From Cytophagaceae bacterium (GTDB lineage: Bacteria > Bacteroidota > Bacteroidia > Cytophagales > Flexibacteraceae), in NCBI GenBank assembly GCA_027490155.1, contig JAIXYP010000009.1, positions 1 to 64,000 on the forward strand: 64,000 bases of DNA. The letters are read 5' to 3'. Numbering within the stretch: position 1 is the first letter of the stretch; every line of letters begins with the position of its first letter. The translations under genes were made by a program, and so were the position numbers. The notes below the pieces were generated by a model, which had not been told where the DNA came from, did not search any database, and saw only the letters and a list, made by a program, of their open reading frames with translations. Shown here piece after piece: positions 12,844-55,396 of this stretch.

Positions 12844-12956
12844 TTGTGTCCCGGCATAGCTAGTCGATTCGCCAGATGATTTGATATAAGGTCAACCAGA
12901 TGGACTACAATCATTTCTTACACGGCCAGGCAGCCACTTCAAAATCTTTGGTCCTT

Positions 12957-14225
12957 ATGTCTCAAAACAGGCATTCAACTATAAAGAAAGTCTGGTTATT
13001 GAGCCTCATGATTTTTGTTGGGGTGTCAGGATGGATGGTACCTCAGGCCTATTGCCAAACAGAGACCAACAGCCAACATACCCGTAAACTAGATGCCTTA
13101 CCTGCACTCATCAGGAAGGACACCATGCTGACCCGCATTTTGCTCGACCCTAGGTACCAAGTACAGCTAATTGTTTCGCCCGTCCTTTCTGAACTTGCCC
13201 CAAAGGAAAACAATACGAAGGTTGCACCCAGCCAATTTATCAGCTATCGCTACCCTAATGCTGATAAGCCTGCTTACTTCTATCCTGCTAGTTTGGTCAA
13301 GCTGCCGACGATGCTTGCAACATTCGTCAAGCTCAACCAACTTGAGCTAAGGAAGTGGGATCAATACCGGATCACGTATGCAGCATCCGCTCCTTGCCAG
13401 ACCGCAGTGCCAGCCAAGGTCAAAGGCAGGCCAAATTATCGACCACCATTACTGGTGGACTATATGAAACAAATATGCCTTGTGAGTGACAACAATGCCT
13501 ACAGCCGGCTGTATGAGTTCTGTGGGCAGTCATTCCTGAACCAACAACTGAAGCGTTGGGGTTTGCCAGAGGCACGCATCATTCAGCGTTTTGCCCCATG
13601 TAACTATGATCAGAATAAGCATACGAATGCAATCAAGTTATATACCGTACGCAATAACAAATTACGCATAGCCTACGCCCAGCCTGCGGCCCACAACCAT
13701 ACCCCACTCAGTAACCCTGCCCCTGGAGCGAGGGCAATTGGCAAGGGATACTTTAAGTATGGGCGATACTATCCAACACCGATGGATTTCAGCCGACATA
13801 ACAACCTACCTCTAGAGGATGTCCATCAGCTGTTTTGCCAGTTGATGATCCGGAAGGTCCCTGGCGTAACTGTCGCTCAACAAGATTCCTTGGTCAAATG
13901 GCTCGGACTATTGCCTCGAGAAGGCCAAATGGGATATGAAAAAGACCTAGGTACTTATCATGATAGCTACAAAAAGTACTTAGTATTTGGCACCCAAGCT
14001 CAAGTCATTAACCCAGATCCACTCAGGATTGTAAATATCGTAGGGCAATCGCATGGTTGGCTATCAGATGTGGCCCTTATCAGAGGTCATGTCGTTTCAG
14101 TCTTGATTTATTGTGATGAGGATGACATTGTAGGTGACGGTAAATATACCACCGAGCATGTAGGGATGCCCTTCTTGAAGCGATTGGGGGAAGAATACCT
14201 AAAAGTCTTCTCGGGTACAGAGTAA
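12957..14225 (+). CDS. Secreted serine hydrolase of the class A beta-lactamase fold
   Basis: 422 residues from the ATG at 12957, chosen because a signal peptide (KKVWLLSLMIFVGVSGW, cut near AYC-Q) follows directly; an ATG at 12900 would add 19 residues before it. The active-site Ser-x-x-Lys is SLVK in PASLVKLPTM. SDN is present in LVSDNNAYSR. The third motif, Lys-Thr/Ser-Gly in true beta-lactamases, is replaced by VGQSHGWLSDVALI. The protein belongs to the beta-lactamase2 group, which is frequent in Bacteroidota, and may be a peptidase acting on the wall or on a peptide. It should be periplasmic. Resistance to antibiotics should not be inferred. Confidence 0.72.
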   Translation: MSQNRHSTIKKVWLLSLMIFVGVSGWMVPQAYCQTETNSQHTRKLDALPALIRKDTMLTRILLDPRYQVQLIVSPVLSELAPKENNTKVAPSQFISYRYPNADKPAYFYPASLVKLPTMLATFVKLNQLELRKWDQYRITYAASAPCQTAVPAKVKGRPNYRPPLLVDYMKQICLVSDNNAYSRLYEFCGQSFLNQQLKRWGLPEARIIQRFAPCNYDQNKHTNAIKLYTVRNNKLRIAYAQPAAHNHTPLSNPAPGARAIGKGYFKYGRYYPTPMDFSRHNNLPLEDVHQLFCQLMIRKVPGVTVAQQDSLVKWLGLLPREGQMGYEKDLGTYHDSYKKYLVFGTQAQVINPDPLRIVNIVGQSHGWLSDVALIRGHVVSVLIYCDEDDIVGDGKYTTEHVGMPFLKRLGEEYLKVFSGTE

Positions 14226-14381
14226 ATCCCATTTTTGCGAATTTGCTGTCAAGTCCAAGGCCAGTTTTCAAGGATCTTCGATCAAGATTGGTCCAATTGG
14301 GAGCCTCGGAAAACTTTTATCGGCAAAGATTTGGCAATCTCAAGACAACCATCCTTATTGCATATGCTTAAAGCACAATAT

Positions 14382-14456
14382 ATGAACAAGTCAATCGCAC
14401 AAGCATGGTGGTGGCAGTCTTCAGAATATCTGATGGCTAGCGCAGCTATGGCGTAA
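14382..14456 (+). CDS. trpL: trp operon leader peptide (24 residues, three consecutive Trp)
   Basis: A 24-codon ORF with the core AQAWWWQSS; Trp codons at 14406-14414 are residues 9-11. Tryptophan is the rarest residue, so three in a row 28 bases ahead of a regulatory hairpin and directly before the trp operon is diagnostic of a leader peptide. Translation would sense charged tRNA-Trp: a ribosome short of it stalls on the triplet. The reading frame is open further upstream (to 14235), but the ATG at 14382 is the start nearest the Trp codons. Stop codon TAA (14454-14456) lies inside a small hairpin (14453-14467). Function is inferred from the architecture. Confidence 0.82.
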   Translation: MNKSIAQAWWWQSSEYLMASAAMA

Positions 14457-14519
14457 CGACTCGTTACCGACCGATCTTAAACAAAGCGTCAGCCATCTAA
14501 TTGGTTGACGCTTTTTTTT
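14406..14519 (+). promoter_or_regulatory. Transcription attenuator of the trp operon
   Basis: Mutually exclusive stems can be drawn. Protector 1:2 pairs AGTC/TCAGA (14416-14425) with TCTGA/GGCT (14429-14438), starting 2 bases after the Trp codons. Antiterminator 2:3 pairs GATGGCTAGCGC (14432-14443) with GCGTCAGCCATC (14486-14497): 7 perfect pairs, one mismatch, then four pairs including a wobble. Terminator 3:4 pairs AAGCGTCAGCC (14484-14494) with GGTTGACGCTT (14503-14513), followed by T6. A ribosome stalled on the Trp codons would mask segment 1, free segment 2 and prevent termination. With ample Trp the 1:2 stem forms and the terminator wins. Confidence 0.82.
14484..14519 (+). terminator. 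Attenuator terminator (stem 3:4) before trpE
   Basis: AAGCGTCAGCC and GGTTGACGCTT make an 11-base stem with one G-T pair and an 8-base loop, followed by six T. It lies 38 bases before the trpE ATG and 28 bases after the leader peptide stop codon, so it acts within the trp transcript and not as the end of the upstream serine hydrolase gene. Confidence 0.88.
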
Positions 14520-14557
14520 GTTTATGCCCCTAAAGTAATCTCCAAGCCTCCTAAGCT

Positions 14558-15982
14558 ATGGCCTATCAATTGCACTCCACCTACAAGTTCCAACTTGCAG
14601 ATCAGTTTACACCTGTCAATCTTTACCTCACCTTGCGTGATCGGTTTCAGGGCTGTGTAATGCTAGAAAGCAGTGACTATCATGGGCAAGAAAACAGCTT
14701 AAGCTATCTGGCGTTCGAGCCTATTGGTAGCTTTTCAGTCACTAAGGGCCTTTGCACCATGCAGTACCCTGACGGCAGGGTCGAAAACAGAACGATCTCC
14801 AACCCTGAGCTACCCGCAACCCTAGCGCAGTTTGTAGAGCAGTTTGCACCCACGGAGCTCAAGCTACCCTTTGCTACTGGTGGATTTTTCGGCCACTGGA
14901 ACTATGAGGCAGCCGAGCTTGTCGAGGACATCAATCTAACATCCCAAAATGGTTATGGCGAAACCAAAGTAGAGCAGTTGCCACAAGTCCATTATCAGGT
15001 GTTTAAGTATGTGATTGTCTTTCGCCACTTCCATAACGAGCTGTACTTAATTCAACATCGTCCTGAGGAGGGTGCTTCCAATCATGATGGGCTACCAGTC
15101 CTTACCCAGCTTTTGGCCCAGTCGCAGGTCAACGCAAGGTTCAAGTTTTCGACAACAGGACCTGAGGTGGCAGACCAGACCAATGAGGCCTATCTAGAAA
15201 ATATCCGACGCGGAATTAGGCACTGTTACCTAGGCGATGTTTTTCAACTAGTTGTGAGCCGGACATTCAGCCAAGCCTTCGAAGGGGATGAATTTAATGT
15301 TTATCGGGGACTGAGGTCGGTCAATCCGTCACCCTACCTTTTTTTCTTTGACTATGGCAACTACAAGATATTCGGCAGCAGCCCAGAAGCCCAACTCTTG
15401 GTAAAGGGCAGAAGGACAGAAATTCACCCGATAGCAGGCACGTTTAAGCGGACAGCCGATGATAAAGCTGACCAAGAAGAGGCCAAACGTCTTTTGGCCG
15501 ACCCTAAAGAAAACGCAGAACACGTCATGCTGGTGGACCTCGCTCGCAATGACCTTAGCCGATTTTGTGACAACGTTGTTGTTGAGCGCTTCAGAGAAAT
15601 TCAGTATTACTCACACGTAATCCACTTGGTATCAAAGGTTACAGGGGATTTGTTACCGGGGCATCATCCGCTAGAGGTTGCTGCAGCAACATTCCCCGCC
15701 GGGACTTTATCAGGAGCACCTAAACATGAGGCCATGAAGATCATCAAATCGCTAGAGGCATCAGGGCGTGGCTTTTATGGTGGTGCCATTGGCTTAATTG
15801 ACTGGGACTGCAATCTAAACCATGCCATCATCATACGCTCCTTCCTTAGCATTAATAACAAGCTATATTACAGGGCGGGAGCAGGAGTAGTAGCTAAATC
15901 AGTCCCTGAACTCGAGATGCAGGAGGTGCTGAACAAACTAGGGGCTCTGAAACGAGCTATGGCCTTGGCTCAGGAGCTGTAA
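14558..15982 (+). CDS. trpE: Anthranilate synthase component I
   Basis: 474 residues. With TrpG it converts chorismate and glutamine-derived ammonia to anthranilate, the first committed step of tryptophan synthesis. The N-terminal part has VMLESSDYH, which corresponds to the LLES feedback-inhibition site that binds tryptophan. The chorismate-binding domain has YRGLRSVNPSPYLFFFDYG, GSSPEAQLLVKG, HPIAGTFKR, ENAEHVMLVDLARNDLSR and AGTLSGAPKHEAM, ending in GAGVVAKSVPELEMQEVLNK. First gene of trpEGDCFBA-aroF, directly behind the attenuator. The presence of the ESS motif indicates enzyme feedback control in addition to transcriptional control. Confidence 0.96.
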   Translation: MAYQLHSTYKFQLADQFTPVNLYLTLRDRFQGCVMLESSDYHGQENSLSYLAFEPIGSFSVTKGLCTMQYPDGRVENRTISNPELPATLAQFVEQFAPTELKLPFATGGFFGHWNYEAAELVEDINLTSQNGYGETKVEQLPQVHYQVFKYVIVFRHFHNELYLIQHRPEEGASNHDGLPVLTQLLAQSQVNARFKFSTTGPEVADQTNEAYLENIRRGIRHCYLGDVFQLVVSRTFSQAFEGDEFNVYRGLRSVNPSPYLFFFDYGNYKIFGSSPEAQLLVKGRRTEIHPIAGTFKRTADDKADQEEAKRLLADPKENAEHVMLVDLARNDLSRFCDNVVVERFREIQYYSHVIHLVSKVTGDLLPGHHPLEVAAATFPAGTLSGAPKHEAMKIIKSLEASGRGFYGGAIGLIDWDCNLNHAIIIRSFLSINNKLYYRAGAGVVAKSVPELEMQEVLNKLGALKRAMALAQEL

Positions 15983-16047: not shown

Positions 16048-16647
16048 ATGTATCATCCTGTCAAAGAATCTGATCAACCAATTAATGTCCTAGTGCTAGA
16101 CAATTATGACAGCTTTGTCTATAACCTAGTCTATCTCTTACGCCAATTTGGTGTGGCCACGACTGTTGTCCGAAATGACAAAATCGGCCCTGCAGAGGCT
16201 GCCAAATTCTCCCATATTCTACTTTCCCCTGGGCCTAGCCTACCCTCTGATGCTGGGAATATGGAGGCCATCATCAAGCATTGCGCCTCGACTGTTAGCA
16301 TCTTGGGCGTTTGTCTAGGGCATCAAGCCATTGCAGAAGTATTTGGTAGCCAGCTGTTTAATCTCGAAGAACCATTACATGGTGTGGCTTCAACTTGCTT
16401 GGTCCAACCAATGGCAGGTCCATTTTTCGACCTCGTCCCGCAGCAGTTTCAGGTAGCACGTTACCATAGCTGGTCTGTGCGGGAAGACAGCCTAGGTCCG
16501 GACCTGATTGTAACCGCAAGAGACAAGGACAACCTGATCCTAGGCATCAGGCATAAGCAATTTAGGTGTTGGGGGGTTCAGTTCCATCCAGAGTCCTACC
16601 TCTGCAAACAAGGTCCCAAACTAATCGAGCAATGGCTCAAACTCTAG
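16048..16647 (+). CDS. trpG: Anthranilate synthase component II (glutamine amidotransferase)
   Basis: 199 residues, a class I glutamine amidotransferase that supplies ammonia to TrpE. It shows VLVLDNYDSFVYNLVYLL at the start, the nucleophile Cys in LGVCLGHQAIAE, and the His-Glu of the triad in QFHPESYLCKQG. It is a stand-alone subunit, not fused to TrpD. The gene sits 65 bases after trpE and 13 bases before trpD in the operon. PabA could look similar, but the position in the trp operon decides for TrpG; it may serve folate synthesis too. Confidence 0.93.
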   Translation: MYHPVKESDQPINVLVLDNYDSFVYNLVYLLRQFGVATTVVRNDKIGPAEAAKFSHILLSPGPSLPSDAGNMEAIIKHCASTVSILGVCLGHQAIAEVFGSQLFNLEEPLHGVASTCLVQPMAGPFFDLVPQQFQVARYHSWSVREDSLGPDLIVTARDKDNLILGIRHKQFRCWGVQFHPESYLCKQGPKLIEQWLKL

Positions 16648-16660
16648 CAGACCTACACTG

Positions 16661-17656
16661 ATGACTTTCAAACAATACCTCGAAAAACTTTTCCAACGGC
16701 TAACCCTAGAGCAGGATGAAGCCCATGATATGCTAGTGCTATTGGGCACAGGCCAGGCCAACGCAGCCCAGATGGCAGCCTTCATGACTGTCTATCTGAT
16801 GCGGGCGATCACACCCAACGAGCTAGCAGGTTTTCGGACTGCAATGTTGGACCTCTGCCATAGGGTAGAACTGGAACATGAGTCTATGGATGTCTGTGGC
16901 ACTGGTGGTGATGGCAAGGATACGTTCAACATCAGCACCACTGCTGCTTTTGTGGTGGCAGGCGCAGGCCAATTAGTGGCCAAACACGGAAATTATGGCG
17001 TCAGCAGCATCTGCGGCAGTAGCACGGTAATGGAGGCCTTAGGCTACCAGTTCAGTAACACAGTCGACACCATCAAGCGGCAGGCGGCCTACGCCAATAT
17101 CACGTTTTTACATGCGCCTTTGTTCCACCCCGCAATGAGCTTTGCTGGCCCAGTACGGCAGGAGCTCGGGACCAAAACTTTCTTCAATATGTTGGGGCCA
17201 TTGGTCAATCCGGTCTTGCCCAAACATCAGCTATCGGGAGTATTCAATCTGGACCTTGCTCGGCTCTACACTTACCTCTTGCAAAAAACGGATGTAAACT
17301 TTGGCGTTATACACGGGCTTGACGGCTATGACGAAATCTCGCTCACAGGACCTGCCAAATATTTATCGAGGGGAAAAGAAACCTTGATCTCGCCCGCGGA
17401 CTTTGCATTTGAGACCCTAAATGCGAGCATTTTGGCAGCGAATAGCACACCAAAAGAGAACGCCAAACGGCTGATCAAGATCCTAAAAAACGAGGCCCCT
17501 GCATCTGACAAAGAAGTGGTGGTTGCTAACGCTGCAGTAGCCCTTCTAACATCTCGAAAAGCCGAAACCTTACTCGAAGCGGTCGATTTGGCCACAATTT
17601 CAATCGAAAGTGGCAGTGCCTACCAATGTCTGCATCGGCTTCTGATGACGGCCTAG
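16661..17656 (+). CDS. trpD: Anthranilate phosphoribosyltransferase
   Basis: 331 residues, the normal length. It joins anthranilate to PRPP to give phosphoribosylanthranilate. The PRPP-binding glycine motif is CGTGGDGKDTFNISTT, and KHGNYGVSSICGS and NMLGPLVNP are the following family blocks. The small helical N-terminal domain (about residues 1-70) is intact. PRPP would come from the Prs enzyme encoded at 36645-37589. Confidence 0.95.
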   Translation: MTFKQYLEKLFQRLTLEQDEAHDMLVLLGTGQANAAQMAAFMTVYLMRAITPNELAGFRTAMLDLCHRVELEHESMDVCGTGGDGKDTFNISTTAAFVVAGAGQLVAKHGNYGVSSICGSSTVMEALGYQFSNTVDTIKRQAAYANITFLHAPLFHPAMSFAGPVRQELGTKTFFNMLGPLVNPVLPKHQLSGVFNLDLARLYTYLLQKTDVNFGVIHGLDGYDEISLTGPAKYLSRGKETLISPADFAFETLNASILAANSTPKENAKRLIKILKNEAPASDKEVVVANAAVALLTSRKAETLLEAVDLATISIESGSAYQCLHRLLMTA

Positions 17657-17713: not shown

Positions 17714-18538
17714 ATGACCAGCACATTAAAAAACATCCAGACTAATATTCTAGCCAAAATCACGACCCGAAAGCGGCAATTTGTTGATGAAGCTAAAGCG
17801 CTATATCCTACGGCTATCCTAGAGAAAAGTATTCATTTTACTGCCCCTACGGTCTCGATGCAGCACTACCTTTTGCGCCCGGACAAGTGTGGTATCATTG
17901 CCGAAATCAAACGCGAGTCACCTAGTCTTGGCCCAATCATACCTTATCTATCTGTAGAAAAAGTATCGATAGGCTACATGCAGGCAGGCGCTTCTGCCTT
18001 GTCTGTTCTGACCGATAGTCCGTTTTTTGGCGGCAGTACTCAAGACCTTATCACTGCCCGACGGTTCAACCTATGTCCCATTTTGCGCAAGGATTTCATT
18101 TTAGACGAGTACCAGATCTTGGAGGCGCGCGCTATTGGTGCTGATACCATCTTGCTTATTGCTGCCATTCTGACCAAGCAAGAGGTCAAGTCATTTGCAC
18201 GCCTAGCCCAATCCCTCGGGCTGGAGGTTCTATTAGAGGTACACAGAAAGGAGGAACTTGACCACTGGACACCAGAAATCGGACTTGTTGGGGTCAACAA
18301 CCGCGATCTGGTTAGCTTTAGGTTAGATGTCCAGACGAGCCATAACCTATACACAGCCTTACCAACTGAGGTCGTCAAGGTCAGCGAAAGTGGCTTAAAA
18401 GATCCAGAAACAGTGGCACTGCTCTATCAAACTGGCTATCGAGGTTTTTTGATCGGAGAGCGATTCCTGACCACAGCTGACCCTGCCGAGGCCTGTGCCA
18501 AGTTCATCAAACAACTCAAGCCACTCATCGCTGCCTAG
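17714..18538 (+). CDS. trpC: Indole-3-glycerol phosphate synthase
   Basis: 274 residues, a single-domain TIM barrel not fused to TrpF. It closes the indole ring by decarboxylating carboxyphenylaminodeoxyribulose phosphate. Visible motifs are IIAEIKRESPSLG (catalytic Lys), ALSVLTDSPFFGGS, PILRKDFILDEYQI (second catalytic Lys), VGVNNRDLVSF, KVSESGLKDP and FLIGERFL at the phosphate-binding end. The gene lies 57 bases after trpD. Confidence 0.95.
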   Translation: MTSTLKNIQTNILAKITTRKRQFVDEAKALYPTAILEKSIHFTAPTVSMQHYLLRPDKCGIIAEIKRESPSLGPIIPYLSVEKVSIGYMQAGASALSVLTDSPFFGGSTQDLITARRFNLCPILRKDFILDEYQILEARAIGADTILLIAAILTKQEVKSFARLAQSLGLEVLLEVHRKEELDHWTPEIGLVGVNNRDLVSFRLDVQTSHNLYTALPTEVVKVSESGLKDPETVALLYQTGYRGFLIGERFLTTADPAEACAKFIKQLKPLIAA

Positions 18539-18619: not shown

Positions 18620-19315
18620 ATGTTTTCTCCATTTCACCTAGCTAATCCTGCACGCCCACTCATAAAGGTTTGCGGCACTCGTGAGGTCCGAAACATCCTA
18701 GAAATCGACCAACTAGGTATCGACTATATGGGGTTTATCTTCTTTAACAAAAGCCCTCGTAATGCGCAGGCCACTTCGCCTTTAGCTTTCAACATCAAGA
18801 CCAATGCTAAACGTGTAGGTGTGTTTGTTAATGCCAAAACCACGGTTATCAAAAGCATGGCTTTGCTCTGGAACCTTGGCCATATTCAACTCCATGGGGA
18901 CGAGCCACCCGAGCAAGCCAAAATCTTGTCCCAAACCTTCGGCATGGATGTCTGGAAAGCTTTCAGGATCACGAATGACTTTGACTTTGAGCTTCTAAAG
19001 CCCTATCAGGAATTTGTGTCGGCCTTTGTGTTTGATGCACCAGGCCACAACTATGGCGGCAATGGCAAGCAATATGACTGGCAAAAACTAAAGGAGTATG
19101 AGGGCAGAACGCCCTTTTGGCTCAGTGGGGGTATAGGGCTTCGCACCCTAGATTCGCTCAAAGACTTTTATCATCCAGCGTGCATCGGATATGATGTCAA
19201 TTCCAAGTTCGAGATCGTCCCGGGTAAAAAGGATCCGAAACTGATTGCAGATTTCATTAAAGAAGTTCGGCCAGATATTGTATCAAAACTAATAGAGTCA
19301 ACTCACAATATATGA
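18620..19315 (+). CDS. trpF: Phosphoribosylanthranilate isomerase
   Basis: 231 residues. It isomerises phosphoribosylanthranilate to the ribulose derivative used by TrpC. The catalytic Cys18 lies in IKVCGTREV. The catalytic Asp lies in VFDAPGHNYGGNG, and the phosphate-binding end is WLSGGIGLRTLDSL. The stop codon overlaps the trpB start by 4 bases (ATGA), so the two are translationally coupled. A shortened TrpF-like protein occurs separately at 27163-27693. Confidence 0.94.
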   Translation: MFSPFHLANPARPLIKVCGTREVRNILEIDQLGIDYMGFIFFNKSPRNAQATSPLAFNIKTNAKRVGVFVNAKTTVIKSMALLWNLGHIQLHGDEPPEQAKILSQTFGMDVWKAFRITNDFDFELLKPYQEFVSAFVFDAPGHNYGGNGKQYDWQKLKEYEGRTPFWLSGGIGLRTLDSLKDFYHPACIGYDVNSKFEIVPGKKDPKLIADFIKEVRPDIVSKLIESTHNI

Positions 19316-20556
19316 GCACGTTATCAGAAATTACTTTGATTGATGCTGAAGGTTTTTATGGTACCTTCGGAGGTGCATTCGTGCCCGAAATGCTCTATGC
19401 CAACATCGCTGAGCTTCAAGAATGCTATCTAAGCATCATGGCCGAACCTAGCTTTGAGGCCGAACTAGAGTTATTGCTACGAGACTTTGTAGGCCGGCCT
19501 ACACCACTTTTTGAGGCTAAACGGCTTTCAGCTAAGTATGGCTACCAAGTTTTGCTCAAACGTGAAGATTTATGCCACACAGGCGCCCACAAGGTGAACA
19601 ACACTGTAGGGCAAATTTTGCTAGCCAAACGACTTGGTAAGCGCAAAATCGTAGCTGAAACGGGCGCTGGGCAACACGGAGTAGCAACTGCAACCGTATG
19701 CGCCCTGATGGGTATGGACTGCATTGTCTATATGGGTGAGGTGGACATGGCACGCCAGCAGCCCAACGTTGACCGTATGCGGATGATGGGCGCCAAGGTT
19801 GTACCGGCGACAAGTGGCAGCAAAACACTCAAGGACGCCACCAATGAGGCTATGCGGCACTGGATCAGTCACCCTGTAGATACACACTACATCATCGGCT
19901 CGGCAGTAGGTCCACACCCCTACCCAGATATGGTAGCTCGGTTTCAAGCAATCATCTCTGCCGAATGTCAAAGCCAGTTAACGGCGCAATTTGGCAAGGA
20001 ACACCCTGCCGCTGTCTTGGCATGCGTAGGTGGTGGGAGCAATGCCGCTGGTGCCTACTATCACTATCTATCTGATGAGCGTGTTAAGCTCTTTGGAGCG
20101 GAAGCGGCTGGTCTTGGGGTTGAGACAGGTCATACGGCTGCCACCCTTAACCTAGGAACAACTGGTGTCTTACATGGCGCAATGTCCAAAATCATCCAGA
20201 CGGCAGATGGCCAAGTGATTGAACCCTACAGCATCTCTGCTGGGTTGGACTACCCTGGGATAGGCCCTCTGCACGCCTATCTCCATGAAACAGATAGAGT
20301 TGAATATATCCCCGTTACAGATCAGCAAGCCCTAGATGCTGGGTTTGAACTTAGTGGCCTAGAAGGGATCATCCCGGCACTTGAAACCGCCCATGCTTTG
20401 GCCCTTTTGCCAACGCTTGACCTACCTCAAGGTAGTACCATTATCGTCTGCCTTTCAGGCCGAGGAGATAAGGACTTATTGACCTACACCAAGTACCTAG
20501 ATCAATACACTCTAAGTGCTGACCATAGCACTAGCTCAGCATCCAAGAATGTATAG
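19312..20556 (+). CDS. trpB: Tryptophan synthase beta chain
   Basis: 414 residues. It condenses indole with serine using pyridoxal phosphate. FGGAFVPEML opens the chain. The PLP Schiff-base lysine is in GAHKVNNTVGQ, the phosphate loop is VGGGSNAAG and the C-terminal catalytic block is VCLSGRGDKDL. It is the TrpB1 type that channels indole from TrpA. It overlaps trpF by 4 bases, and trpA begins within a few bases of its stop. Confidence 0.96.
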   Translation: MSTLSEITLIDAEGFYGTFGGAFVPEMLYANIAELQECYLSIMAEPSFEAELELLLRDFVGRPTPLFEAKRLSAKYGYQVLLKREDLCHTGAHKVNNTVGQILLAKRLGKRKIVAETGAGQHGVATATVCALMGMDCIVYMGEVDMARQQPNVDRMRMMGAKVVPATSGSKTLKDATNEAMRHWISHPVDTHYIIGSAVGPHPYPDMVARFQAIISAECQSQLTAQFGKEHPAAVLACVGGGSNAAGAYYHYLSDERVKLFGAEAAGLGVETGHTAATLNLGTTGVLHGAMSKIIQTADGQVIEPYSISAGLDYPGIGPLHAYLHETDRVEYIPVTDQQALDAGFELSGLEGIIPALETAHALALLPTLDLPQGSTIIVCLSGRGDKDLLTYTKYLDQYTLSADHSTSSASKNV

Positions 20557-20560
20557 GACC

Positions 20561-21382
20561 ATGGAAACGAAAAGCAACCTAACCGATACAAACAGGATCA
20601 ACGTTCGAATCAACAAAAGGGGGCTGACTCCTTTGTTGTCTGTATTCTTTACGGCTGGGTTTCCTGCACTAGGTGATACATTACCAATTGCCGAAGCATT
20701 AGCTGCCGCTGGGGTTGATATGCTAGAGATTGGGATGCCTTATTCGGACCCGATTGCTGATGGCCCCGTCATACAGAACAGCAGTGAGGTGGCCCTTCAG
20801 AATGGCATGTCAATTGACCTCCTATTTGATCAGCTGGCTGACCTCAGGCCCAAAATTGACATCCCAGTATTATTGATGGGTTACTATAATCCTATGCTGC
20901 AATATGGGATTGAGCGATTCGTGCGACAGTGCCAAGCAGTTGGTATTGATGGCCTTATCATCCCCGACCTACCACCACATCTATACGAAAGGTACTATGC
21001 CAGCTTATTTGAGGAGGCAGGCCTAGCAAATATCTTCCTGATCAGTCCGCAGACGTCAGACGAGCGCATTAGGTATATCGATGGCATTTCTGCTGGGTTC
21101 ATATATGCTGTCTCCAGTGCAAGTATCACAGGTGGTAGTGGCCCGATTAAAGATAGCCAAACCGCTTATTTCGAAAGGCTTAATGGCCTTAAGCTCCGGA
21201 CACCTCATGTTATTGGATTTGGCATCTCCGACGCCACCTCTTTCCGACAAGCGACTAAATATGCAGATGGGGCGATTGTGGGTACGGCATTTATTAACCT
21301 ATTAAATAGCTATCCTCAGCACTATCAGGAACATATCGCCTCATTCGTACAATCACTAAAAGAGCAAGCATTCCCTAGCTGA
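20561..21382 (+). CDS. trpA: Tryptophan synthase alpha chain
   Basis: 273 residues from the ATG at 20561. An alternative ATG at 20549 overlaps trpB by 8 bases and would add four residues; both fit a coupled operon. TrpA cleaves indole-3-glycerol phosphate to indole and glyceraldehyde 3-phosphate. The catalytic Glu is in MLEIGMPYSDP and the catalytic Asp in PIADGPVIQ. LLMGYYNPMLQYG, GLIIPDLPPHLY and FGISDATSF follow in the expected order. Confidence 0.95.
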   Translation: METKSNLTDTNRINVRINKRGLTPLLSVFFTAGFPALGDTLPIAEALAAAGVDMLEIGMPYSDPIADGPVIQNSSEVALQNGMSIDLLFDQLADLRPKIDIPVLLMGYYNPMLQYGIERFVRQCQAVGIDGLIIPDLPPHLYERYYASLFEEAGLANIFLISPQTSDERIRYIDGISAGFIYAVSSASITGGSGPIKDSQTAYFERLNGLKLRTPHVIGFGISDATSFRQATKYADGAIVGTAFINLLNSYPQHYQEHIASFVQSLKEQAFPS

Positions 21383-21471: not shown

Positions 21472-22494
21472 ATGATTATTACCCTTCGGCAAGATGCCAG
21501 CCCTGACCAAATCCTGACCATTGAACAAAAACTCACTAGTCTTGGCCTCAAACTGGTCGATGTAACAAGCCAATCTGGGCGATACTTCGTGATTGCAGGG
21601 ATGCCCAACCTGGACATTCGATCATTAGCTGACCTCAAAGGTGTGGATGATGTCCATATTGTAAGCGACACATACAAACTCGTTAGCCGCAAATGGAAAC
21701 TAAATCCTAGTAGCATTCCGGCAGGTCTGGCAAGCGATGTTACTCCTATTGGTGGTGGTGGCATGTCAATAATGGCTGGACCCTGCTCGGTTGAAAGCGA
21801 AGATCAGCTTGTCCAAATTGCTGATTTCTTGGTCAGCCAGGGTGTGCAATTTATGCGAGGGGGTGTTTTCAAACCACGCAGTTCACCTTACGCCTTCCGA
21901 GGTTTGGGTATCGAGGGCTTGGCCATGATGGCAAGCGTTTGCCGCCCTCGGGGCATCAAGATCGTGACTGAGGTGATGCAGGTTTCGCAGATCGACCCTA
22001 TGCTAGCATATGTTGATGTGTTTCAGGTAGGTGCACGCAACACACAAAACTTCAACCTGCTAGATGCCTTGGGGCAAGTTTCGACGCCTGTATTGCTCAA
22101 ACGAGGCATTAGTGGTACCATTGACGAGCTACTTCAATCAGCGGAGTATATTTTTTCTGGTGGCAATGAGCGGATCATCTTTTGCGAGCGTGGCATTCGT
22201 ACCTACGAAACCGCATCCCGCAACACACTGGATCTCAATGCAGTGCCAATCCTGAAAGATAAATCCCACCTACCTGTCATCATCGACCCATCTCATGGTA
22301 TTGGCATCCGCCAGTTTGTGACGCCAATGGCTTTAGCAGGGTTGATGGCAGGTGCTGATGGTGTTATCCTTGAAGTACACCCCGAACCTGAAAAGGCCGC
22401 TAGCGACGGTGCCCAAACGTTAAGCTTTGCCGAGGCTGAAATCTGTTTTGGCAAAATGCGCCAAACCCATGAGCTTCTTAAATCTTGGCAATAG
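21472..22494 (+). CDS. aroF: 3-deoxy-7-phosphoheptulonate synthase (DAHP synthase, type I-beta)
   Basis: 340 residues. It condenses phosphoenolpyruvate and erythrose 4-phosphate, the first step of the shikimate pathway. An N-terminal ferredoxin-like domain (about residues 1-70) precedes the barrel, as in Thermotoga DAHP synthase, where such a domain binds feedback inhibitors. The barrel has MAGPCSVESEDQL, GGVFKPRSSPYAFRGLG, QVGARNTQNF, LLKRGI and VIIDPSHGIG. No chorismate mutase domain is fused. It is the last gene of the trp operon, 89 bases after trpA, so the trp attenuator should also control it. Confidence 0.93.
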   Translation: MIITLRQDASPDQILTIEQKLTSLGLKLVDVTSQSGRYFVIAGMPNLDIRSLADLKGVDDVHIVSDTYKLVSRKWKLNPSSIPAGLASDVTPIGGGGMSIMAGPCSVESEDQLVQIADFLVSQGVQFMRGGVFKPRSSPYAFRGLGIEGLAMMASVCRPRGIKIVTEVMQVSQIDPMLAYVDVFQVGARNTQNFNLLDALGQVSTPVLLKRGISGTIDELLQSAEYIFSGGNERIIFCERGIRTYETASRNTLDLNAVPILKDKSHLPVIIDPSHGIGIRQFVTPMALAGLMAGADGVILEVHPEPEKAASDGAQTLSFAEAEICFGKMRQTHELLKSWQ

Positions 22495-51271: not shown

Positions 51272-51451
51272 GGGCTTATCCAGAAAGACGGAGGGAATGG
51301 ACCCGACGATGTCTTGGCAACCCAGCAACCACCCTGTTATCAATTTCGGGCTCCCTCTAAAATAGCACGAGTCAGCAGGTTACTAATGGTGCCAAATTCC
51401 ACTTACAGCGCTGCCTTGTCTAGGCTTGGCGACTGAAAGAAAGATAAAGCG
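51272..51451 (+). promoter_or_regulatory. SAM-I (S-box) riboswitch upstream of metH
   Basis: The conserved blocks are present in order: P1 strand GGCTTATC (51273-51280), the k-turn/P2 region GGAGGGAATGGACCCGACGA, TTGGCAACC, the P3 arms with AGCAACC and GGTTACT, GGTGCCAAATTCC, and the closing P1 strand GATAAAGC (51443-51450). P2 closes as AAGAC/GTCTT. P3 is longer than in Bacillus S-boxes. When SAM is high the aptamer would lower expression of methionine synthase. Location right before metH confirms the call. Confidence 0.88.
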
Positions 51452-51631
51452 ATTTGAGTCAACCCCACTCATTTCTGGCTTAGCGATACCTTTTGCGGAT
51501 TCTCGCAACGGATCCTTATTGCTCTTTATCCAACGATTTTTGATCTCGGATGGCATTGTGCTTTTGGCAAAGTCAAGTAGAGAGGCAATTTGGGATCGAA
51601 CTATACTTTTTTAGACCATAACCCCGGCGCA
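51452..51631 (+). other. Expression platform between the SAM-I aptamer and metH
   Basis: The 180 bases hold no clear terminator with a T-run. CTTTATC (51524-51530) is a perfect complement of the 3' P1 strand GATAAAG (51443-51449) and could compete with P1. A small hairpin TTGCG/CGCAA lies at about 51494-51509. The regulatory output (transcription or translation) cannot be decided from the sequence. Confidence 0.5.
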
Positions 51632-54600
51632 ATGACCACACCCTCCACTAAATCCTATGTCCTAAATGAACTGCTCAAGGAACGCATACTAGTACTGGAT
51701 GGTGCCATGGGTACCATGATCCAGAGGCATAACCTGACAGAAGAGGACTACAGGGGCGATAGGTTTGCGAATAATGAGCGAGATCTCAAAGGCAATAATG
51801 ACCTCCTGACCCTTACACAACCTGAACTGATAAAAGATATCCATCGGGCCTATTTTGCTGCTGGTGCTGACATAGTCGAGACCAATACGTTTAGCTCCAC
51901 CACGATAGCGATGGCGGATTACCATCAGGAGCACCTCGCCTACGAACTTAACTACCAAGGTGCCAAGATTGCGCGTGAGGTGGCGAATGAGTTTACTGCT
52001 CTTGAGCCCCATAAACCACGCTTCGTAGCTGGTTCCATAGGCCCAACCAACAGGACCGCCTCGATCTCACCAGATGTTAATAACCCGGGCTACAGGGCTG
52101 TATCATTTGATGAGCTCAAAAATGCTTATGCTGAGCAGATCAAGGGCCTTGTTGATGGCGGTGCAGACATCCTATTGGTCGAAACCATTTTTGATACGCT
52201 TAATGCCAAGGCGGCCCTATTTGCAATCCAGGAGTTTAACGAGTCTACAGGGCTAGATATTCCTGTTATGGTCTCTGGCACAATTACGGACGCTAGCGGT
52301 AGGACACTTAGTGGTCAGACTGTGGAGGCATTTCTGTACTCAGTCTCACATGTCAATTTGCTGAGTGTTGGATTCAATTGTGCGCTTGGAGCAGATCTGT
52401 TGCGGCCTTATGTAGAAGAGCTCAGCGATAAGGCACCATTTTTCACCAGCGCCCACCCCAATGCAGGTCTTCCGAATGAGTTTGGCGAATATGACGAGAG
52501 CCCAGAGCAAATGGCTAGCGTCATCGAAGGGTTCCTCAAGGATAACTTCATCAACATCATCGGTGGGTGTTGCGGCACAACGCCAGACCACATTAAGGCC
52601 ATTGCGGACGTCGCTGAGCGTTACAGCCCACGCCACAAACCCGAAAATGACCACAACCCCAAACTCTCTGGCCTTGAACCACTTAAGATATTTGACGGGC
52701 TTAACTTCGTCAACATCGGGGAACGGACCAATGTTACAGGCAGCCGCGCTTTTGCTAGGCTGATCAAGGATGGCAAGTTTGACGAGGCTGTATCTGTAGC
52801 CCGTCAACAAGTTGAGGGCGGAGCGCAAGTCATCGATGTCAATATGGACGAAGGCATGCTTGACAGCGAAGCGGCCATGGTCCTATTCCTGAATCTGATT
52901 GCCGCCGAGCCTGATATCGCCCGTGTGCCGGTAATGATTGATAGCAGCAAATGGTCAGTCATCGAGGCAGGTCTAAAATGCGTGCAGGGCAAGGCCATCG
53001 TCAACTCCATCAGCATGAAGGAAGGAGAAGATACCTTCCGAGCCCAAGCACGCAAGGTCCTTAAATACGGGGCCGCTGTCGTTGTGATGGCATTTGATGA
53101 AGATGGCCAAGCCGATAGCTACGAACGCCGTATCGCAATCTGCGACCGTGCCTACCACATCTTGGTAGATGAAGTAGGTTTCCCAGCCGAAGACATCATT
53201 TTTGACCCAAACATCCTTACGGTTGCCACTGGCATTGAAGAGCATAACAACTATGCTGTCGACTTTGTCAGGGCCACTGAGTGGATCAAAACCCATTTGC
53301 CACACGCCCGAGTTAGTGGTGGGGTCTCCAATATTTCGTTCAGCTTTAGGGGCAATGATACGATCAGGGAAGCCATGCACTCGGCTTTCCTTTATCGGGC
53401 CATCAAAGCAGGTATGGATATGGGGATTGTGAATGCGGGCATGATCACGGTCTATGAAGACATCCCGAAAGACCTACTTGAGCTAGTTGAAGATGTACTT
53501 TGGAACCGCCGGCCTGACTCAACAGAAAGGTTAGTAACTGCGGCAGAGACCATCAAATCCAAGGGGAAAGAAATCGTCAAAGATGAATCTTGGCGCCTTT
53601 TGGAGGTCAAAGCACGCCTAGCCCATGCCCTAGTGAAAGGTATTGCGGACTATGTGGACGAAGACATCGAAGAATGCAGACACCTCTATAAACGCCCAAT
53701 CGAAGTAATCGAAGGGCCTCTGATGGATGGTATGAACATCGTTGGCGACCTTTTTGGTGAAGGCAAGATGTTCTTACCACAGGTCGTCAAATCAGCACGT
53801 GTCATGAAAAAGGCCGTTGCTTACCTTCAACCATTCATAGAAGCTGAAAAGACTGAAGGCAGCAATGCCCAGGGCAAAATATTATTGGCCACAGTAAAGG
53901 GAGATGTGCATGATATAGGCAAAAACATCGTTGGTGTCGTCCTTGGCTGTAACAACTATGAGGTCATCGATATGGGCGTGATGGTGCCAGCCGAAAAAAT
54001 TTTAGAGCGCGCCCGCAAAGAAAACGTGGATGTGATCGGCCTCAGTGGTTTGATCACTCCATCGTTAGATGAAATGGTCCATGTAGCCAAAGAGATGGAA
54101 CGCCAAGGCTTCAAGATTCCTCTATTGATTGGTGGGGCCACGACAAGCCGCATCCATACTGCAGTTAAAATAGCACCTAACTATAGTGGCCCGGTGGTCC
54201 ATGTGCTGGACGCTAGTCGTTCGGTCCCTGTTGCGGGTAAACTCATTGGCCCTGATAGTAGGGAGGCCTTTGCATTAGATGTCCGAGAGGAGTATGACCA
54301 GATGCGGACAGACCATGCTGCCAAGCACAAGGATAAATCCTTTGCTACGTTGGCCGAGGCTCGCCAAAACAAGGTCAAAATCGACTGGAACGCCACCAAG
54401 ATCGTTAAGCCGAGTTTCCTTGGTGTCCAATACTTTCAGGACTATGACTTGGCCGAAATCGCTAAGTACATCGACTGGACTCCGTTTTTCCAGACTTGGC
54501 AGCTATTTGGACGGTACCCCAAAATCCTAAAAGATGATAAGGTTGGTGCTGAGGCAACAAAACTTTTTGCTGATGCCCAAGCCATGCTGAAACGAGTTTT

Positions 54601-55396
54601 GGATGGGAAATTGCTGAAAGCCAAGGCCGCTATCGGTTTCTGGCCTGCAAATGCTGACGGGGATGATATTGTCCTCTATCAGACCGATGAAAAAACGATC
54701 AGCACTGATTGTGACAAACATGGTAGCCATACCAACACTATCCAAACTGTTTTAACTGATGCTGATGGCAAACCAGTTCGGCGGACCCTGAAGCTACACC
54801 ACTTGCGGCAGCAGAGTAAACGTGCTGTTGGCGTACCTAATTATTGCCTATCTGACTTCATCGCACCTGTCGAAAGCAGCAAGGTGGACTACATTGGCGG
54901 ATTTGCAACCACGGCTGGTATTGGGCTGGATGAACTCGCAGCTTCTTACGAAGCGGACCACGATGACTATAACTCGATCATGATCAAAGCCATTGGTGAC
55001 CGGCTGGCGGAGGCTTTTGCTGAACTGATGCACGAAAAAGTGCGCCGTGAGCTTTGGGGATATGCCCCTGCTGAACTTCTAGAGAACGAGGCCTTGATTG
55101 ACGAACAATACCAAGGCATCCGCCCTGCTCCAGGTTATCCCGCCTGCCCCGAACATACCGAAAAAGGCACCCTGTTCACCCTCCTTGATGCTGAGGAAAA
55201 ACTTGGCATGACCTTGACCGAAAGCTATGCGATGACCCCAGCAAGCTCTGTGAGTGGATGGTATTTCAGCCACCCAGATAGTCGGTATTTCGGCCTAGGC
55301 AAAATTGCCAAGGACCAGATACAGGACTATGCACAGCGTAAGGGCATGACCTTTGAAGAAGCTGAAAAGTGGTTAGGCTCTGTAGCTAATTATTAA
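51632..55396 (+). CDS. metH: Cobalamin-dependent methionine synthase
   Basis: 1254 residues from the ATG at 51632 (TTG at 51590 adds 14). It transfers a methyl group from methyltetrahydrofolate to homocysteine. All domains are present: homocysteine-binding ([11 protein letters not shown]; zinc Cys in GFNCALGAD and GGCCGTTP), pterin-binding ([20 protein letters not shown]), cap helices, the B12 domain with the axial His in [11 protein letters not shown], and the C-terminal reactivation domain ([15 protein letters not shown]). It is full length and not split, as it is in some other phyla. A SAM-I riboswitch precedes it. Confidence 0.97.

Follow-up and report, generated by a model that had tools for sequence, protein, structure and literature searches.

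The trp operon of this Cytophagales bacterium is preceded by an RNA switch that, judging from its sequence, most likely shuts the operon down in the presence of ample tryptophan, and we assign the element with high confidence as a ribosome-mediated transcription attenuator that would work as E. coli trpL. This E. coli-type logic had originally been predicted from the letters of the window alone, the window being the 64,000-nucleotide stretch analysed here. The classical trp-attenuator reading is now well supported by comparison, as related bacteria carry leaders with WWW or WW followed by terminators and retain the pairing between regions 2 and 3 (2:3) that would form the antiterminator.

The element lies upstream of a complete trpEGDCFBA cluster with a DAHP synthase gene, all on the forward strand. 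The trpE gene for anthranilate synthase component I (14558-15982) has TIGR00564 as its best NCBIfam match (E 1.1e-115, below the model cut-off), and trpF (18620-19315) is likewise below cut-off against NF002295 (E 1.2e-40). Matches above cut-off identify trpG, anthranilate synthase component II (16048-16647, TIGR00566), trpD (16661-17656, TIGR01245), trpC (17714-18538, NF001377), trpB (19312-20556, TIGR00263) and trpA (20516-21382, TIGR00262), the last with an uncertain start codon and overlapping trpB as listed. The 3-deoxy-7-phosphoheptulonate (DAHP) synthase at 21472-22494 (TIGR01361, above cut-off) is probably the last gene of the operon. The source genome, of the order Cytophagales, comprises 4.0 Mb on 69 contigs and is rated 100% complete. 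Neither the Trp repressor TrpR nor a gene for TRAP was found in it, so attenuation may be the main form of tryptophan control in this organism. No second attenuator for comparison was found in the genome, since hisG has no visible leader upstream and ilvD (dihydroxy-acid dehydratase, PF00920) is absent despite the completeness rating, which possibly points to branched-chain amino-acid auxotrophy. Counting TGGTGGTGG across the genome as a guide to further Trp leaders was uninformative, with 240 matches on both strands versus 182 for a reversed-pattern control.

The putative leader peptide is encoded by a 24-codon ORF on the forward strand, MNKSIAQAWWWQSSEYLMASAAMA (14382-14456), running from an ATG at 14382 to a TAA at 14454-14456, with an in-frame ATG at 14364 as an alternative start. 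The three consecutive TGG codons of the original prediction lie exactly at 14406-14414, where a run of regulatory codons precedes the complete cognate biosynthetic operon. Their presence in the sequence and the conservation of WWW in relatives mark them as the proposed stall site. No Shine-Dalgarno-like site precedes the ORF. Transcription may start downstream of a promoter-like -7 box, AAGATTTG (14326-14333, forward strand). Because it deviates at one position from the Bacteroidota consensus TAnnTTTG, this box is an imperfect and weak promoter candidate for the window itself.

Behind the Trp codons, the forward strand encodes stems that exclude one another, and base-by-base inspection agreed throughout with the architecture first proposed. 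The protector hairpin, stem 1:2 (14416-14438, -7.9 kcal/mol), begins 2 nt after the last Trp codon and has a computed pair probability of 0.94-0.95 before region 3 is transcribed and with no ribosome present. Region 2, the 5′ arm of the antiterminator (14432-14443), begins 16-18 nt after the last Trp codon, a placement in which a stalled ribosome would cover region 1 and leave region 2 free. It pairs with region 3 (14486-14497) through 11 base pairs, including one G-U (14440-14489), around a single mismatch (14439/14490); the duplex has a free energy of -19.4 kcal/mol (p 0.010 when compared with shuffled versions of region 2). Region 3 also supplies most of the 5′ arm of the terminator (14484-14519), so that 14486-14497 is common to both structures. 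The terminator consists of a 12-bp stem 3:4 (hairpin 14484-14513, about -19.3 to -19.4 kcal/mol) followed by six further T (14514-14519), and it folds beyond chance (z -7.2; 0 of 200 shuffles as good), as does the larger stretch 14406-14524 (z -5.0; 0 of 200). A third small hairpin, absent from the original prediction, spans the leader stop codon (14450-14472, forward strand, -5.1 kcal/mol) and sits in the antiterminator loop, which it shortens.

The position of stem 3:4 bears on the possibility that the switch acts on trpE translation, or in trans through a released leader RNA or peptide, rather than on termination. A trans-acting peptide is known from the trp attenuator of Sinorhizobium meliloti (PMC7298713). 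In our case, however, 3:4 does not cover the trpE start, whose ATG (14558) lies 38 bases beyond the end of the terminator, and the conserved T tract after 3:4 points to termination, which together make this explanation quite unlikely. An additional role in trans beside termination is compatible with the T-tract evidence and may exist.

As an attenuator, the element would operate while RNA polymerase and the leader-translating ribosome advance together. With ample charged tRNA-Trp, the ribosome would clear the three Trp codons and arrive at the stop codon; region 2 would then be covered or caught in 1:2, so that 3:4 could form and transcription would stop at about 14519. With uncharged tRNA-Trp, the ribosome would instead stall on 14406-14414 and cover region 1. 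Region 2 would then pair with newly made region 3, the terminator would come too late, and the eight biosynthetic genes would be transcribed. Base-pair probabilities computed for growing transcripts, with the 5′ part hidden by the ribosome, are consistent with this scheme. If the RNA is free from 14425-14431, corresponding to a ribosome at the last Trp codon, 2:3 is predicted to form with a probability of 0.99 for transcripts ending at 14497-14505. If it is free only from 14444-14469, corresponding to a ribosome at the stop codon, 2:3 is predicted to be unavailable and 3:4 to form, reaching a probability of 0.98 for a ribosome edge at 14469 and a transcript end at 14510. Once the full hairpin has been made, 3:4 wins at equilibrium for every ribosome position computed, and antitermination must therefore be kinetic, as it is held to be in E. 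coli. Without a ribosome, 2:3 beats 1:2 at equilibrium as soon as region 3 is made, so that basal termination without leader translation would depend on 1:2 forming first; the computed pairing numbers do not decide this basal state.

To evaluate the arrangement across Bacteroidota, we collected loci by trpE from named genomes across the phylum, 195 genomes of the same order and further upstream regions, giving 212 trpE upstream regions in which a few genomes occur twice. A region counted as positive when two or more clustered Trp codons stood in a leader ahead of a terminator folding at -12 kcal/mol or better. By this definition, leader and terminator occurred together in 175 of the 212 regions; applied to controls, the same scan found 1 case in shuffled copies, none on the reverse strand and 3 among 440 other windows taken from the same loci. 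Requiring WWW together with the terminator left 143 of 212 regions and no hits in any of the three kinds of control. Named carriers include Adhaeribacter, Pontibacter, Hymenobacter, Algoriphagus, Fulvivirga, Salegentibacter, Gillisia, Aquimarina, Sphingobacterium, Pedobacter, Chitinophaga and Maribellus. The relatives' leaders have a median length of 20 codons with the first Trp at residue 9, and region 2 starts a median of 18 nt past the last Trp codon (13-21 for the 10-90% range), a distance into which the window fits. Given the ribosome footprint, a ribosome stalled on the Trp codons would leave the start of region 2 just exposed. Of 174 leaders, 117 have TAnnTTTG in the 90 nt upstream, versus 9.4 expected. 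A Shine-Dalgarno-like 4-mer is present in only 3 of the 174, and positions -3 and -6 are enriched in A, in agreement with a report on Bacteroidetes mRNAs (PMC7366714).

Within the order Cytophagales, 102 of 130 usable trpE regions carry the arrangement. Four of its families (f4, f14, f20 and f22) keep trpE and have mostly lost the Trp leader, which makes them well suited to studying what has taken its place. Most relatives from the window's own family, f1 (G027, G043, G072, G085, G099, G113 and G126), show no true trpE and only distant chorismate-binding enzymes, and the tryptophan pathway seems to have been lost in several genera. Variants of the leader itself were also seen. Two loci, L162 and L217, have alternating Trp codons in place of WWW (FWFWQW and FWFWYW, respectively). 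Fulvivirga marina (L018) possesses two complete WWW-leader and terminator units in tandem, MKNNSLNNAWWWHYTKTW and MRTLIYINKVWWWHFSHIGE, from about 350 to 80 bases before trpE, which by their sequence would act as two attenuators in series.

The strongest evidence for a real antiterminator is the co-evolution of regions 2 and 3, which we evaluated by pairing the two regions natively or swapped between loci. Over 105 loci with distinct region 3, native 2:3 pairs averaged -13.7 kcal/mol versus -10.0 kcal/mol for swapped pairs, 14 standard deviations beyond permutation. Similarly, 46 lineage representatives gave -12.9 versus -9.6 kcal/mol, with 0 of 50,000 permutations as good; the native advantage is thus about 3.3-3.6 kcal/mol. 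The sequences involved are wholly different between lineages, reading GTGAACAGC/GCTGTTCAC in Pontibacter, GGCGATAAGTC/GACTTATCGC in family f2, CGATCGG-GG/CC-CCGATC in a Cyclobacteriaceae MAG and GATGGCTAGCGC/GCGTCAGCCATC in the window. The alignment of relatives that had been proposed as a check accordingly revealed Trp codons and terminators conserved before trpE and a 2:3 pairing kept despite sequence turnover. Single loci give weaker evidence: when each is compared with shuffled sequence, only about half of the relatives attain p 0.05, and 2:3 of the same-family relative L114 is unremarkable (p 0.21).

Conservation at close range could be followed in a same-genus relative (G138) whose TrpE is 97% identical to that of the window. 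Its leader differs at 2 of 75 bases, with WWW kept, and the intergenic stretch before it at 17 of 85; the promoter-like block 14311-14381, which contains the -7 box, differs at 4 of 71. The terminator stem is kept, the 2 changes in 38 bases of the terminator being single-base gaps in the loop and at the T tract, and every base of the hairpin at 14450-14472 is identical. The sole difference at a paired base, T14438 to C, costs one pair in 1:2 and one in 2:3.

These comparisons bear on a simpler explanation, in which the hairpin does no more than terminate transcription of the upstream gene (12900-14225) and the frame rich in Trp codons arose by chance. A strong intrinsic terminator downstream of a same-strand gene would suit this explanation, and in the same-family genome L115 trpE is preceded by a terminator without any Trp leader. 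A relative with the hairpin and without Trp codons had been named as damaging to attenuation; we rejected L115 as a counterexample because its hairpin comes immediately after the upstream gene and appears to be the terminator of that gene. In the window, by contrast, the hairpin lies some 260 bases past the gene stop, after the conserved promoter-like block. Together with the excess of Trp leader and terminator before trpE (175/212 against 3/440) and the co-evolution of 2:3, this leaves the upstream-terminator explanation very little probability.

Attenuation by the leader also has to be compared with known RNA families. Rfam RF01692, 'Bacteroid-trp', comprises Trp leader RNAs of Bacteroidetes described by Weinberg et al. 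in 2010 and listed as a cis-regulatory candidate, not a riboswitch (PMC2864571). The window resembles it in position and composition, having an AUG, a UGG-rich ORF and structure before trp genes in a member of the Bacteroidetes. RF01692 (49 bits) nevertheless did not match the window at its gathering score, nor 14200-14700 at any E up to 10. The model scored above gathering in four Flavobacteriia loci (L010, L014, L034 and L075) and three Cytophagales loci (L185, L208 and L222). As seen on L185:120-246, it takes in the leader together with an upstream stem, and its end, ...AAAAAGGCUUGUC, falls in the 5′ arm of the terminator, the model thus lacking both stem 3:4 and 2:3, which the window has. 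Regions 2 and 3 of the window are moreover unrelated to the common form found in Pontibacter.

The E. coli trpL family (RF00513, Trp_leader) shares with the window a leader peptide, Trp codons immediately before stem 1:2, the 2:3 and 3:4 pairings, a U tract and the downstream trpE. It differs in having two adjacent Trp codons rather than three. The window also departs from it in its lack of a Shine-Dalgarno site, in the absence of TrpR from the genome and in a region 2 that is contained in the ORF and ends some 10 bases ahead of the stop codon. RF00513 (41 bits) gave no match to the window up to E 10, and a few Cytophagales leaders score below its threshold. The Rfam scan of the window returned only a SAM riboswitch far from the leader (RF00162, 54.4 bits, 51273-51450, forward strand), directly before a 1268-aa ORF (51590-55396) that reads, by eye from its sequence, as the cobalamin-dependent methionine synthase metH. 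At permissive settings, only chance matches to the leader were returned.

Riboswitch-like, T-box or TRAP-like devices control trp genes in other phyla, and a metabolite- or tRNA-sensing or protein-bound leader with an incidental ORF is nonetheless highly improbable here, given that the Rfam scan of the window found no T-box (none up to E 10 in 14200-14700) and no riboswitch in the leader region, that the genome has no detectable TRAP, and that conservation is highest for the Trp codons among relatives with otherwise unrelated RNA.

Attenuation of this kind was already known for the phylum, and the element in the window is a divergent new example. The same mechanism was proposed in 2019 for the trp operon of Flavobacterium psychrophilum, from another class of Bacteroidota, on the basis of the Bacteroid-trp motif (PMC6414381), and a transcriptome map of that species gives clues to leader-peptide attenuation before amino-acid operons (PMC9723704). 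The novelty implied by the original prediction has to be corrected accordingly: the principle dates back to RF01692 and the F. psychrophilum proposal. The element in the window itself falls outside RF01692. In the literature searched, a scope that left out most subscription journals, we found no description of phylum-wide 2:3 co-evolution, which together with the leaders lacking Shine-Dalgarno sites constitutes the useful addition. The Rfam family leaves out the regulatory half of the element and fails to capture divergent members such as that of the window.

Overall, we consider it somewhat more probable than its opposite that in trp-prototrophic Bacteroidota the trp attenuator is an ancestral and almost universal feature, whose region 2 and 3 sequences turn over freely while their pairing is kept, that it works without Shine-Dalgarno sites, and that RF01692 recognises only part of it. 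Attenuation with such leaders would imply that RNA polymerase and ribosome are coordinated tightly enough for it across the phylum. If true, such coordination exists throughout a phylum with unusual translation initiation. A test bed is provided by well over a hundred trp leaders of Bacteroidota, only a few of which have a Shine-Dalgarno site, and a read-through assay on them could measure transcription-translation coordination in Bacteroidota directly.
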